Positions 38,550 through 42,909 of a stretch of 48,864 nt of DNA are shown in pieces. Positions within the stretch are counted from its first letter, which is position 1; the number at the start of each line of letters is the position of its first letter. The DNA lies in the NCBI RefSeq assembly GCF_019449275.2, contig NZ_JAHZQZ020000001.1, positions 1 through 48,864 on the forward strand, in the 5' to 3' direction. The stretch is from Microbacterium sp. HD4P20. GTDB lineage: Bacteria; Actinomycetota; Actinomycetes; Actinomycetales; Microbacteriaceae. Under the pieces are notes generated by a model that worked only from the letters and a program-made list of their open reading frames with translations, searched no databases and was not told where the DNA came from. The position numbers were made by a program, and so were the translations under genes.

Positions 38550-39205
38550 TCCGTGTCGTGATCGCAGACGACCAGGCCATGGTGCGGGCAGGCTTCTCGG
38601 CCCTGCTCGGTGAGCAGCCCGACATCGAAGTGGTGGGGTCGGCCGCCGACGGCGAGGCCTGCGTGCGGCTCGTCGAGCAGCTGCATCCGGACGTCGTGCT
38701 CATGGACGTGCGGATGCCCGTGCTCGACGGCATCGCGGCGACCCGCACGATCTCGGCCGCGCCGCAGGCCCCCCGCATCCTGATCCTGACGACCTTCGAC
38801 ATCGACGACTACGTCTTCGACGCCCTCTCGGCGGGTGCGGCCGGGTTCCTTCTCAAGGACGCGTCGCCGGATGAGCTCACGCAAGCCGTGCGCATCATCG
38901 CCGCCGGGGATGCCCTCCTGGCGCCGAGCGCGACCCGCACGCTCATCGAGCGGTTCACCGCGACCCGTGGCCCGCGTCGCACCGATCGCGCCGTCCTCGG
39001 GGAGCTCACCGAGCGGGAGCGCGAGGTGCTCGTCGGGGTCGCGCAGGGCGAGTCCAACACCGAGATCGCCGCGCGCCTGTTCGTCGCCGAGCAGACGGTG
39101 AAGACGCACGTGTCGCGGATCCTCGCCAAGCTCGGTGCCCGCGATCGGGCCCAGCTGGTGATCGCGGCCTACGAGGCCGGGCTCGTCATCCCGGGCACGG
39201 CGTAG
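38546..39205 (+). CDS. LuxR-family response regulator
   Basis: The 219-residue regulator has a receiver domain (Asp8-Asp9, phospho-acceptor Asp54 in VVLMDVRMP, Lys104 in FLLKDASP) and a C-terminal LuxR HTH (LTEREREVLVGVAQG, then EIAARLFVAEQTVKTHV). It pairs with the kinase it overlaps. Its last 37 nt overlap in antisense the end of the acyltransferase gene. A palindrome at 40583 upstream of that gene is a possible target. Confidence 0.9.
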   Translation: MIRVVIADDQAMVRAGFSALLGEQPDIEVVGSAADGEACVRLVEQLHPDVVLMDVRMPVLDGIAATRTISAAPQAPRILILTTFDIDDYVFDALSAGAAGFLLKDASPDELTQAVRIIAAGDALLAPSATRTLIERFTATRGPRRTDRAVLGELTEREREVLVGVAQGESNTEIAARLFVAEQTVKTHVSRILAKLGARDRAQLVIAAYEAGLVIPGTA

Positions 39206-40488
39206 CGGCGGCCGCCTCGCGCGATCGCCCGCCGACCCGACACCAGCCGGAGCGACACCGCGAGGCCGGCGACGGCGAGCACTGCGGTGAGCGGCGTGAA
39301 CCCGCCGATCAGCACGGCGACGACACCCGCCATGCCCAGCGCCACGGCGAGCACGACACGGCCACGCGCCGGCTCCTGCCCTGTCGTCTTGACGCGGCCG
39401 CGCTCGAAACGCTGCGCCACGAGCACCAGCAGCACCGTCGCGATCAGGACGCTCAGGATCCAGGCCGGCCGCGTCGCCCACCACAGCGGGCTGAGGGGGT
39501 CGGGGAAGGGCACGCCCGATGCGAAGAGGAGAGCTGCGACCAGGACCAGGGCGGGCATGTGCCACAGGTACACCGTCATCGAGCGGGTGCCGATCGCGTC
39601 GACTGCGGCGGCGACGTGCGGCCGGGTCGCGAGACTGCGAAGGCGGGGCGCAGCCAGTGCCAGGGCGAACAGCTGGGCGGCGCCGAGCACGACGAGGCAG
39701 ATGGTCGGGGGGTTGAGGTTCTCGTACATGTCGGGCGAGTACGCGCCCGAGGCGAACAATCCGGCCAGCACGATCAGCGAGCCCGAAAGCCCGACGACGA
39801 GCCGGCGCCGAGATGTCGCGGCCAGGCGGCCGTCCGCCCACCAGAAGCCGAGCTGCTGCATGGCCAGCCACACGAACGCGAGGTTCAGGAAGCCCAGGCC
39901 GGCGATCCCGGTGCCCATGCGGACCGCGTCCACGGTGACGACTCCGAGCACCAGCATCCCGAGCGTCATTCGCGGAGCGCGTTCGTGGCATCGGGCCAGC
40001 AGTGGCACGAGCGCGGTCGCACCCAGGTACACGCCGAGGAACCACATCGGCTGGGCCATGCGGAATCCGAGTTCGCCCACCAGAGCCGGCGACACACCCG
40101 CCATGAGCGCGACGGTCAGGCCGACGCCGATCACCGAGAACGCGGCGATCGCGGGCACCGCCAGGCGCCGCAGCCGGCCGGTCACGAACGATCCTGCGGA
40201 CTCGCCGCGGTCGCGCATCCGGCGCCACTGGGTGATGCCCGCGAACCCGCCGACGATGAAGAAGATCGGCATGATCTGCACGATCCACGACACCGGCGCG
40301 AACCACGCCTGGCCGATCACGACGTTCGTGACGGCGATCTGGCCGTCGACCACCGCGATGCCCGCCATGAACGCATGCAGCGCCACGACCACGACGAGGC
40401 AGACGGCGCGCACGAGGTCGATCGCGGCATCTCTCGGCGTCGGAGAAGTGCGGGTGGTGCCGATGCGAGGACGATCCAGAAGCGTCAC
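39169..40488 (-). CDS. Acyltransferase family 3 membrane protein
   Basis: The 439-residue polytopic protein has about ten helices and the features of acyltransferase_3/OafA-like enzymes: DLVRAVCLVVVVALHAF with His in the first helix, FIVGGFAGITQWRRM, QPMWFLGVYLGATALVPL and YLWHMPALVLVAALLF. These enzymes acylate sugars or other groups of the envelope. GTG 40488 is chosen because it starts about 20 residues before the first helix; the frame continues to 40584 through DNA with the TACGGT -10 candidate. The gene converges on and overlaps the response-regulator gene by 37 nt. Confidence 0.78.
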   Translation of the reverse strand: MTLLDRPRIGTTRTSPTPRDAAIDLVRAVCLVVVVALHAFMAGIAVVDGQIAVTNVVIGQAWFAPVSWIVQIMPIFFIVGGFAGITQWRRMRDRGESAGSFVTGRLRRLAVPAIAAFSVIGVGLTVALMAGVSPALVGELGFRMAQPMWFLGVYLGATALVPLLARCHERAPRMTLGMLVLGVVTVDAVRMGTGIAGLGFLNLAFVWLAMQQLGFWWADGRLAATSRRRLVVGLSGSLIVLAGLFASGAYSPDMYENLNPPTICLVVLGAAQLFALALAAPRLRSLATRPHVAAAVDAIGTRSMTVYLWHMPALVLVAALLFASGVPFPDPLSPLWWATRPAWILSVLIATVLLVLVAQRFERGRVKTTGQEPARGRVVLAVALGMAGVVAVLIGGFTPLTAVLAVAGLAVSLRLVSGRRAIARGGRRYAVPGMTSPAS

Positions 40489-40582
40489 GACGGTTCCCAG
40501 TTCTGTTCGGATTCGTTTGGGTGTCCTGCAACCGTAGGAATCCGGGCCCGTCGCGCGCGTCACCCCCCGGAGCCGTCCTTGC

Positions 40583-40604
40583 ACCCCCTACCCCGGTAGG
40601 GGGT
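40583..40604. promoter_or_regulatory. 22-bp palindrome with G/C tracts
   Basis: ACCCCCTACC (40583-40592), a CC spacer and GGTAGGGGGT (40595-40604) form perfect 10-bp arms. It lies 95 bp upstream of the acyltransferase start and about 220 bp upstream of the divergent DUF559 gene. The G-tract/TA layout resembles CsoR-type metal-sensor sites, but no copper gene is present here. The rest of the 339-bp spacer holds a TACGGT -10 candidate for the acyltransferase (minus strand, about 40525-40540) and one repeat copy at 40704. Confidence 0.5.
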
Positions 40605-40703
40605 CGGTCGGGGTCGCTACCGGGCTCGCGGCCCCTGCGTGCAGCACTCCGGACAAATCCGACCTGGTCGGGCACGGACCGGGCAGGAGTGTGCTCGAGC
40701 GGG

Positions 40704-40720
40704 GTTCTTCAGGAGTTCGG
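40704..40720 (+). repeat. Repeat copy upstream of the DUF559 gene
   Basis: GTTCTTCAGGAGTTCGG shares the core TTCAGGAGTT with the two copies downstream of the gene and is inverted relative to the first of these. Confidence 0.6.
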
Positions 40721-40827
40721 CCCGCCGGCACTCCGCCCGCTCCTCCCCAAACGACCTCTCGCGGCGGTTTCCTCAGACGCGTTGCTTCGGCGTCGTGTGC
40801 CGCGACGCCGGCGGCACAGTCGAAACC

Positions 40828-41664
40828 GTGACCGAGCGAATCACCCGAATTCACGACGCCGGCCCCGCGACGCTGCTCAGCACGAGGGTCCTTGCCGATG
40901 CCGGGCTGTCCCGACGACAGCTCGCCGAGCAGATCGCGGCCGGCCGACTCGTCCGCGTGCGCAAGGGCTGGCACGTTCAGGCTGGGGCGCATCCGGCGGT
41001 CGTCTCGGTCGCGCGCCTCGGGGGCCGGCTGGACTGCGTCTCGCTCCTCCGTCTTCTCCGGGTGTTCGTGCTGGAGAAGGAACACGTGCACATGCAGGTG
41101 GACCCGCTCGCAAGCCGACTGCCCCGCGCGCCTGACGGGGTCGTTCGGCATTGGCGACCGACCTCGGTCCCGCGCGAGGCGCTCGTGACCGATCTGATCG
41201 AGGCGCTCGTGCAGGCCACCCGATGTCAGCAGCCGCGGGCCGCGATCGCGACGCTCGACAGCGCGTGGCACCTCGGCCTCGTCGACGAGGAGGGAATCGC
41301 CGAGGTGTTCTCCCGCCCCCCGCGCCACTACCGCCGGCTGCGTCCGCTCCTCGACAGGCGAAGCGAGTCCGGACCCGAGACACTCGTGCGCCTCATGCTG
41401 CGGGCACTCGGCTGCCGGATCGACGTGCAGCCGTCGATCCGGGGAGTCGGGCGAGTCGACTTCGTCGTGAACGGCTGGCTGATCATCGAGTGCGACAGCG
41501 AGGAGTTCCACTCGAGCTGGGCGGCACAGAAGCGCGACCGTCGACGCGATCTCGAAGCTGCGCGCCTCGGCTTCACGACCCTGCGACTCCTGGCCGAGGA
41601 CATCATGTGGAATCGCGAGCTCGTCCAGTCGGCGCTGAAGGAGGTCATCGCCCGCGGGCGCTGA
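40828..41664 (+). CDS. DUF559-domain protein with AbiEi-like N-terminal winged helix
   Basis: The 278-residue protein has an N-terminal DNA-binding-like domain (ARVLADAGLSRRQLAEQ pattern with a VRVRKGWH wing) of the type annotated as AbiEi antitoxin N-terminal, a middle region of unknown role, and a C-terminal DUF559 domain: GRVDFVVNGWLIIECDSEEF, then KRDRRRDLEAARLGF and LRLLAEDIMW. DUF559 belongs to the Vsr-like/PD-(D/E)xK nuclease fold; the Asp, Glu-x-Asp and DRRRD residues would be the metal site. No toxin partner is adjacent. GTG 40828 has no Shine-Dalgarno; the frame is open upstream but lacks family similarity. It is flanked by related repeats on both sides. Confidence 0.75.
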   Translation: MTERITRIHDAGPATLLSTRVLADAGLSRRQLAEQIAAGRLVRVRKGWHVQAGAHPAVVSVARLGGRLDCVSLLRLLRVFVLEKEHVHMQVDPLASRLPRAPDGVVRHWRPTSVPREALVTDLIEALVQATRCQQPRAAIATLDSAWHLGLVDEEGIAEVFSRPPRHYRRLRPLLDRRSESGPETLVRLMLRALGCRIDVQPSIRGVGRVDFVVNGWLIIECDSEEFHSSWAAQKRDRRRDLEAARLGFTTLRLLAEDIMWNRELVQSALKEVIARGR

Positions 41665-41673
41665 CCCCACGGC

Positions 41674-41757
41674 GAGCACAACTCCTGAAGGAACGGTGCA
41701 GGGGCTCCGATCAGGCACCACGACAGCGGTGTCGCACCGATTCTCAGGAGTTGCGCC
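41674..41757. repeat. Inverted repeat pair downstream of the DUF559 gene
   Basis: GCACAACTCCTGAAGGAACG (41676-41695) is mirrored by a sequence ending TCTCAGGAGTTGCGC (about 41742-41756), and inner GGTGC/GCACC words extend the match. Both carry the core of the copy at 40704. The pair could form a long hairpin and end transcription of both the DUF559 gene and the converging adenosine deaminase gene. Confidence 0.75.
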
Positions 41758-41793
41758 CACGGAGGCGACCGCGCGGGAACGCGAGGAGTCGGA

Positions 41794-42909
41794 TTACTCC
41801 GCGAAGCCGCTGGAGATGAGGTCGATCAGCTCTTCGCGCTCTTCGACGGCGAGGAACGCGCCGGCCGCGGCGTTGAGCTGGAACACCTCGAGGTCGTCGA
41901 GGCCGTACTCGAAGGTCTCCGACAGCAGCGCCAGCTCGCGGGTCAGCGACGTGCGGCTCATGGTGCGGTTGTCGACATTCACCGTCACCGAGAACCCGAG
42001 CTGGTACAGCAGGTCGAACGGGTGGTCCTCCATCGTGGAACCCCAGCGCTCGATCGCGCCGGTCTGCAGGTTCGACGAGGGTGAGAGCTCGAGCGTGATC
42101 TCGCGGTCGCGCACCCACCGCGCGAGGTCGCCGAACTGAACCAGCACCTCTTCGCCCGCACGCGAGACGACCTCGAGATCCTCGGCGATGCGCACACCGT
42201 GACCGAGCCGCAGCGCGCGCCCGTCGATGAGCGCGGAGCGGATCGAGTCGAGCCCGGCCGCCTCGCCGGCGTGCACCGTCGTGGGGAAGAACTCCGACGC
42301 GAGGTACTCGAACGCCTCCCGGTGATTCGACGGCGGGAAGCCGTCCTCGGGCCCGGCGATATCGAAGCCGACCGCACCACGCGTGCGCCAGTCCACGGCC
42401 AGGCGAGCGATTTCGAGCGACCGGTCGGTGTGCCGCATCGCGGTGATGAGCTGCCCGACCCGGATGTCGTGGCCGCGCCGCTCCGCGGCGTCCTCTCCCT
42501 CTTCGATGCCCTCCTGCACCGCCGCGACAGCCTCCTCGGGCGACAGACCCCGCGCCAGATGCTGCTCGGGCGCCCAGCGCACCTCGCCGTAGATCACGCC
42601 GTCGGCGGCAAGATCCTCGACGAACTCGCGGGCGACGCGCGAGAGCCCTTCGCGGGTCTGCATCACGCCGGTCGTCAGGTCGAACGTTTTCAGGTACTCC
42701 ACCAGCGAGCCCGAGTCGCTCTTCTCCGAGAACCAGTCGGCGAGGTCGTCGGCGTCGGTCTCGGGCACGTCGAGCCCGACCTCGTCCGCCAGCTCGATGA
42801 TCGTCTGCGGCCGCACGCCGCCGTCGAGATGATCGTGCAGCGACACCTTGGGAAGACCGCGGATCGACACGCCGTCCAGGATGGCGTCACCGTGCTGGTC
42901 GATGGGCAT
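41794..42909 (-). CDS. add: Adenosine deaminase
   Basis: The 371-residue metal-dependent hydrolase turns adenosine and deoxyadenosine into inosine. His25 and His27 in SLHDHLDG bind zinc; FDIAGPEDG, TTVHAGEAAG with its His and Glu, RLGHGVRI and ELSPSSNL follow. The C-terminal zinc Asp lies in VNVDNRTMS, the form common in actinobacterial enzymes. ATG 42909 has a GAGGAGA ribosome-binding site and lies 75 bp after the thymidine phosphorylase stop, so it is probably the last gene of the nucleoside operon. Inosine would go to the phosphorylase at 18811. Confidence 0.95.
   Translation of the reverse strand: MPIDQHGDAILDGVSIRGLPKVSLHDHLDGGVRPQTIIELADEVGLDVPETDADDLADWFSEKSDSGSLVEYLKTFDLTTGVMQTREGLSRVAREFVEDLAADGVIYGEVRWAPEQHLARGLSPEEAVAAVQEGIEEGEDAAERRGHDIRVGQLITAMRHTDRSLEIARLAVDWRTRGAVGFDIAGPEDGFPPSNHREAFEYLASEFFPTTVHAGEAAGLDSIRSALIDGRALRLGHGVRIAEDLEVVSRAGEEVLVQFGDLARWVRDREITLELSPSSNLQTGAIERWGSTMEDHPFDLLYQLGFSVTVNVDNRTMSRTSLTRELALLSETFEYGLDDLEVFQLNAAAGAFLAVEEREELIDLISSGFAE

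Follow-up and report, generated by a model that had tools for sequence, protein, structure and literature searches.

REP-associated tyrosine transposases (RAYTs, also called TnpA_REP or REPtron) are single-copy, vertically inherited genes with flanking doublets of repetitive extragenic palindromic (REP) sequences. In REPIN-RAYT systems the repeats are private to each gene, are dispersed in extragenic positions and also occur in genomes without the gene (excerpts of PMC3116915 and PMC8049555). The TnpA_REP enzyme recognises and cleaves single-stranded REP sequences with a GTAG motif (excerpt of PMC8266576), and 69-235 REPINs are given for E. coli (excerpt of PMC8049555). Here we describe a comparable arrangement around an unrelated enzyme in a stretch of 48,864 nt from Microbacterium sp. 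HD4P20 (contig NZ_JAHZQZ020000001.1, positions 1 to 48,864), referred to below as the window. A single gene for a nuclease-family protein of 278 residues (40828..41664, + strand, predicted GTG start) lies there between copies of an inverted repeat, an arrangement that an earlier note on the same stretch had likened to RAYTs. The gene belongs to a large family in which most of the members sampled are bracketed by palindromes private to their lineage, and we assign a probability of roughly 0.5 to the reading that the product binds, nicks and copies its own repeat. Among the titles and opening lines of abstracts listed from open-access PMC (preprints excluded) we found no published description of such a nuclease-repeat pair, and an excerpt of a REP-sequence survey (PMC12306157) names no Microbacterium.

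Both predicted parts of the protein have described relatives. Vsr, the namesake of the nuclease fold, acts at T:G mismatches. AbiEi, the antitoxin of type IV AbiE systems, binds two 23-bp inverted repeats upstream of its own gene and Rv2827c binds four (excerpt of PMC7319586), while MTES_1575 is a multi-domain HEPN-containing protein with a Vsr-type restriction endonuclease (excerpt of PMC3710099).

Bracketing of the gene family

The family was analysed in a sample of 70 genes, comprising five loci of the window's own genome, five further loci and 60 genes from 39 genomes of the genus. The latter are the first 61 ranked homologue entries minus one near a contig edge, with open frames of 250-460 residues and at new loci. 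For each gene the best local match between the upstream and the downstream flank was compared with the 99th percentile of 1500 cross-locus pairs (score 42). By this measure 45 of the 70 nuclease genes exceed the threshold, compared to 2 of 133 neighbouring genes, which were predicted from third-position GC at these loci (Fisher, 1.7e-24); among the matches listed, a shifted-window control exceeds it in 9 of 258 cases. Palindromes above the 95th percentile of 130 control windows are found upstream of 39/70 genes and downstream of 43/70, on both sides of 28/70 and on either side of 54/70. Moreover, the four homologues that the window genome carries besides the window protein (L002-L005) are each bracketed by a different palindromic element.

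The repeat sequence follows the protein. Among the 18 loci whose proteins come closest to the window protein, 12 have facing pairs of AACTCC and GGAGTT in their flanks, compared to 1 of the 71 others (Fisher, 9.4e-10); the remainders of all 89 loci (361 kb in all) have none. The lone exception among the 71 is L012, a 70% homologue that ranks low by protein score because its frame looks disrupted. This Microbacterium elymi frame (L012 2937-3810), which may instead be misassembled, has kept four doublets, two per side. Protein identity as such correlates with flank similarity at a Spearman coefficient of 0.27, but conserved neighbours confound this value and it was dropped. In an Rfam scan of five loci no family covers the elements, the only match being a tRNA elsewhere in L167.

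Beyond the genus, a search of 79 genomes from the order finds homologues at 1e-10 in 20. From 28 new order-level loci, one own-genome paralogue, three unplaceable loci and three loci of the genus were removed; 9 of the remaining 21 show flank similarity above 42, a threshold that was calibrated within the genus.

Repeats flanking the window gene

Each flank of the window gene carries one inverted pair of AACTCCTGAA half-sites with a span of 73 nt, and the far upstream arm is decayed. In the downstream doublet (41680..41752) AACTCCTGAA faces TCAGGAGTT, and GCAC/GCGC lengthens the stem to 41676-41756. The upstream doublet (40645..40717) combines a decayed left arm, CACTCCGGAC, with an intact right arm, CTTCAGGAGTT. 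The three repeat copies counted in the earlier note are these two doublets. The 11-mer AACTCCTGAAG has two exact copies in the window, at 40707-40717 (-) and 41680-41690 (+), which lie on either side of the gene and in opposite orientation, just as the note had described. In 100 shuffles searched at up to one mismatch the mean is 0.21 copies, and two copies are reached in 3/100. The third copy (41744-41752, -) is not the full 11-mer; it keeps AACTCCTGA and then diverges (AACTCCTGAGAATC).

The downstream copies face each other and form a predicted hairpin with a fold z-score of -4.13, a stability that none of 200 shuffles equals; the upstream stretch alone folds no better than chance (z = -0.75). 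The partner of the upstream copy at 40645 matches at 7 of 10 positions at a span of exactly 73, and at random positions 19 of 3000 trials reach at least 7 at any of four spans. Since a partner exists at this span, we read the upstream copy as a doublet with one decayed arm. This decay also accounts for the low flank score of the window gene (28). A T-run terminator or promoter consensus was not found at 40400-42000.

Predicted domains of the window protein

The window protein is predicted to consist of an AbiEi-like DNA-binding region and a Vsr-like nuclease in one chain. The union of a DNA-binding part with a Vsr-like nuclease had been proposed in the earlier note and is now supported by a confident AlphaFold2 model with a mean predicted local distance difference test (pLDDT) score of 91.4, which matches both folds. 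Residues 12-176 (40861..41355, +) match the AbiEi antitoxin of Streptococcus agalactiae (6y8q) over its whole length, and residues 181-278 (41368..41661, +) are assigned to a Vsr/EDxHD-type nuclease domain by structure match and invariant residues. Among 26 aligned sequences the invariants are VGRVD, WL, ECDS, H, W and D..RD, so that according to the predicted structure and the alignment both the Vsr-type fold and conserved acidic residues are present. Pfam matches are to the MTES_1575, DUF559 and AbiEi_4 families, plus one chance-level match; PF18741 (5e-9, 36.6 bits) stays below its cut-off of 38.2, PF04480 (2.4e-4) is above cut-off and PF13338 (18.8 bits) is below its cut-off of 25. An HUH/Y1 tyrosine transposase domain is absent from the protein in both the Pfam scan and the structure model. 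The nearest named relatives of the protein are from Microbacterium.

Compared to AbiEi antitoxins, the modelled fold of residues 12-176 is alike and recognition of inverted repeats would be expected. However, no AbiEii (DUF1814) toxin gene was found among the neighbours scanned, and the two adjacent genes encode an acyltransferase and an adenosine deaminase; the protein instead carries a nuclease domain of its own, and the repeats lie on both sides of the gene and, in relatives, elsewhere. Residues 181-278 resemble the Vsr, DUF559 and MTES_1575 restriction endonucleases in predicted fold, conserved residues and Pfam names, whereas the fusion to a predicted DNA-binding region and the tie to a repeat set the window protein apart from Vsr. 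In contrast to the EDxHD homing endonuclease I-Bth0305I, there is no visible sign that the open frame splits its own putative target, and apparently intact sites are present on both sides and elsewhere. We also considered a defence or homing-type nuclease that would cut foreign or element-less DNA and whose resident site would be protected by the doublets, in the role of self tags, decoys or homing marks. Homologues are absent from 50,697 phage records and number two, both distant, in 72,556 plasmids; PADLOC and NCBIfam scans returned weak fragment matches only, and the five neighbouring products scanned include no defence gene. Such a function is therefore improbable.

Covariation of repeat arms at a syntenic site

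An adenosine deaminase gene is present at 10 of the 70 loci and marks a syntenic site. In the window it lies 3' of the nuclease gene (41794..42909, -; PF00962, 1.4e-83). The same holds for L058, L079, L062, L066, L056 and L083, while L012 has it on this side too, but with about 1.5 kb of other sequence in between, and at L091 and L102 it is on the opposite side. The nuclease gene is vertically inherited at this site.

Seven of these loci (the window, L058, L012, L062, L066, L079 and L056) have AACTCC in common and differ in the bases that follow, namely TGA in the window and in L058, GGA in L012, ACC in L062, TCT or TTC in L066, ACA in L079 and TCA in L056. At these three bases the two arms of one doublet agree with frequencies of 0.96, 0.96 and 0.91, compared to 0.45, 0.55 and 0.39 between loci. 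At four positions the observed covariation of the arms is reached in none of 2000 permutations. A few loci have both an upstream and a downstream pair intact, so that the two can be compared; in all 13 such comparisons the three bases are the same. The repeat sequence thus differs between lineages together with the gene, and each protein therefore likely recognises its own repeat.

Dispersed copies and their link to the gene

To follow the window-type repeat beyond the gene, the pattern AACTCC-N51-62-GGAGTT, which allows spans of 63-74 nt, was searched in the 39 genomes. It gives 269 matches in 34 of them (0-36 per genome), a total that includes copies at the genes and some chance matches in coding sequence, compared to 8 matches for the reversed pattern. 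In the listed part (75 of the 269 places) the continuation is private to each genome, being for instance GGAGATC in G001 and TTCGATC in G013. The latter genome has two doublets at its gene beside the adenosine deaminase and six elsewhere with the same half-site type; none of these six is under a coding-like frame, and each has AACTCCTTCGAT in at least one arm. Further pattern matches have a median of 9 in the 12 genomes with a fetched window-type gene carrying doublets and of 1 in the other 27 (p = 0.0017); the gene census is incomplete, G009, G016, G001 and G014 being counted among the 27.

In the window's own genome a BLAST search with the whole window element finds no dispersed copy (best other match E 0.16), because conservation is limited to the half-sites. 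Three other AACTCCTGAA sites are without a good partner arm and look like chance singles. The pattern itself has four matches, of which one is the window doublet by position and three are outside the places listed. Thus, the genome-wide search suggested in the earlier note finds the repeat widely in relatives, while dispersed copies in the window genome are few or absent. The gene in the window and one of its doublets are intact and the second doublet is half decayed, which gives this copy the look of a resident but partly degraded family member.

The element of the paralogue L003 occurs in its own genome at no fewer than 14 places, two of them at its gene, with one further weak copy. It is found in 4 of the 39 genomes, at 14 places in G000, 13 in G019, 8 in G028 and 3 in G012 (merged by eye). 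All three genomes with an L003 orthologue of at least 65% identity (100, 78 and 69%) are among these four (p = 4.4e-4); this identity line was set after the list had been seen, and the next-best matches, at 61%, are without the element. The three orthologues carry the element on both flanks and adjoin serC (named from sequence). A further element, that of L077, is present in G011 at two places at the gene and at four elsewhere, and had no match below E 0.01 in seven other genomes. The note had named two outcomes that would refute its reading, namely repeats equally common in strains without the gene and homologues without flanking repeats. Both are seen in part, the first in G028, which has the repeat but no close gene, and the second in the 25 of 70 homologues that stay below the flank threshold.

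Adjacent L003-type elements follow each other with a period of 152-156 nt and leave 83-88 nt of spacer between them; by eye, the spacer sequences look unrelated between loci. Sites with this constant spacing are L167 2508-3041, L174 2499-2870, L175 2504-2726 and L188 2498-2720. At 21 of 24 L003-type loci no coding-like frame runs over the element according to a home-made frame caller; L173, L187 and L188 are ambiguous. This mostly extragenic position, and likewise the hairpin of the window's downstream doublet, would fit generic extragenic palindromes or terminators between genes that are unrelated to the enzyme. Such palindromes would have to single out the nuclease genes for bracketing over their neighbours (45/70 vs 2/133). 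Furthermore, the motif tracks the protein subfamily and the presence of the repeat tracks the orthologue. These data already disfavour this explanation, which we regard as very improbable.

Spacing of the half-sites

The window lineage has one half-site per arm. At 13 of its loci the half-sites are NNNNAACTCCNNN without a GTAG (or CGTC) tag, and the 23 doublets found there fall exclusively into three classes of span, 63-64, 73-74 and 95 nt, in a search that admitted 36-121 nt. Among the 75 listed pattern matches, the 34 places at which all three variable bases agree between the arms have spans of 63-65 or 72-74 nt and none of 66-71. With two of three bases agreeing, 2 of 27 fall at spans of 70 and 71, and with one or no base agreeing, 3 of 14 fall at 66-71. 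The spans step by one and two helical turns, which suggests that the half-sites are recognised on one face of duplex DNA. In other lineages the arms appear to be built differently. The set compared holds 103 arms of 76 palindromes, which lie at 56 loci out of 89 (the 70 and a further 19 of the L003 family). In 37 arms a motif is repeated 19 nt further along the arm, and in 17 arms the distance is 18 nt, compared to 3.5% and 4.1% of shuffles; the remaining lags between 9 and 35 nt give 0 to 6.8%. We infer four half-sites per element in those lineages.

Helical-turn spacing would be expected for any protein that reads half-sites on duplex DNA, including an AbiEi-like autoregulator. In this main rival explanation the palindromes would be operators and downstream boundary or terminator sites, the dispersed copies would be other regulated sites, and nothing would move. 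The N-terminal region does match AbiEi in the structure model, AbiEi and Rv2827c each have inverted repeats as binding sites ahead of their own gene (excerpt of PMC7319586), and the upstream palindrome is often centred 120-165 nt before the start. However, copies also lie downstream of the gene and, elsewhere, near 3' ends and between convergent genes, they occur in tandem arrays, and a search near the window gene finds no T-run terminator. Repression would moreover not require a conserved nuclease domain as fusion partner. Taken together, we consider autoregulation the most serious alternative but an unlikely one.

Proposed role of the nuclease

The pattern fits a nuclease that recognises, maintains and spreads its own doublet. 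In this proposal, the AbiEi-Vsr protein would bind its own repeat on double-stranded DNA and the nuclease would nick the repeat there. Repair or recombination would then carry the repeat to other sites and keep its copies uniform. The concerted change of the copies at one locus and the lineage-private sequences would arise because copies are repeatedly nicked and repaired from one another. In its wider form, for which we see about even chances, the system would be a second, independently evolved REPIN-like class. In such a class an AbiEi-Vsr protein would read two half-sites on one face of the duplex, cut or nick there, and spread and homogenise a private repeat, with gene and repeat coevolving; it would be widespread in Microbacterium and present in other families of the order.

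The likeness to REPIN-RAYT systems comprises a single, vertically inherited gene, inverted palindromic doublets on its flanks, dispersed extragenic copies in relatives, a private sequence per gene and repeats in some genomes without the gene. In contrast, the enzyme is predicted to be AbiEi-like plus Vsr-like instead of an HUH tyrosine transposase, and the window-lineage half-sites carry no GTAG tag. The spacing suggests recognition of duplex DNA, whereas TnpA_REP acts on single-stranded REP (excerpt of PMC8266576). Copies are also fewer, with 0-36 pattern matches per genome compared to the 69-235 REPINs of E. coli quoted above. The unrelated enzyme and the absent tag set the system apart from the RAYTs, even if its way of working may be similar. 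The analogy drawn in the earlier note thus applies at the level of the family, by bracketing, dispersal in relatives, lineage-specific sequence and vertical inheritance; for the window itself it is limited by the few or no dispersed copies in its genome and by the lack of a clean empty site.

Several observations weigh against this proposal. An upstream palindrome alone is what the operator of an autorepressor would give, and vertical inheritance beside adenosine deaminase points to domestication rather than present mobility. Flanking repeats are not universal, as 25 of the 70 homologues, the window gene included, fall below the flank threshold. Repeats may also occur apart from the gene: G009, G016, G001 and G014 have 36, 16, 13 and 11 pattern matches though no window-type gene was fetched from them, and tblastn finds no window-type gene in the stretches taken around doublets of G001 and G008 and around one family gene of G009 (L228-L231). 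Likewise, the eight L003-type repeats of G028 (L181-L186) are orphans, the best gene match there having 41% identity. As to movement, neither a new insertion nor a clean excision was seen at the one site compared, where L168 and G019 differ in that some 360 nt surrounding the element have been lost, and copy number differs at two of three comparable orthologous sites (1 vs 3 and 1 vs 2) as local tandem change. The L168 site had been a candidate for a clean empty site of a dispersed copy (compared with G019 and G028); as the loss is ragged only, it is not used as proof of mobility.

If the nuclease does maintain and spread its repeat, a partnership of enzyme and repeat arose at least twice with unrelated chemistry, and the question of why bacteria keep REP-like repeats becomes comparable between two systems. 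Genes labelled 'AbiEi antitoxin' or 'DUF559', of which there are several per genome in the genus, would gain a testable function. The many natural pairs of protein and repeat are a ready data set for the DNA specificity of AbiEi-type proteins, and coevolution of gene and repeat, if true, would make them a natural series of matched protein-DNA specificities.

Further features and observations

On the other side of the window gene lies an acyltransferase_3 family gene (39169..40491, -; PF01757, 1.1e-35), which is also found beside one other homologue, L058. At the paralogue locus L002 a run of CCCGA pentamers (1071-1253) adjoins the upstream palindrome. In G019 two L003-type elements enclose an alpha/beta-hydrolase gene (L178 2500-3911, PF07859), in the position that elsewhere belongs to the nuclease gene. 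A short conserved frame (GTGTTGACCTGTCG...) is found upstream of a cysteine synthase-like gene in L168 (around 2620-2660), L190 and L191, and it resembles a Cys-rich leader peptide. The L005 nuclease gene is without most of the AbiEi-like part and has its own elements on both flanks. At this locus the 50-nt 3' end of a gene, presumably Ffh-like as named from its sequence, is duplicated (90%) across the nuclease gene (1290-1339 and 2097-2146), possibly as an insertion scar.
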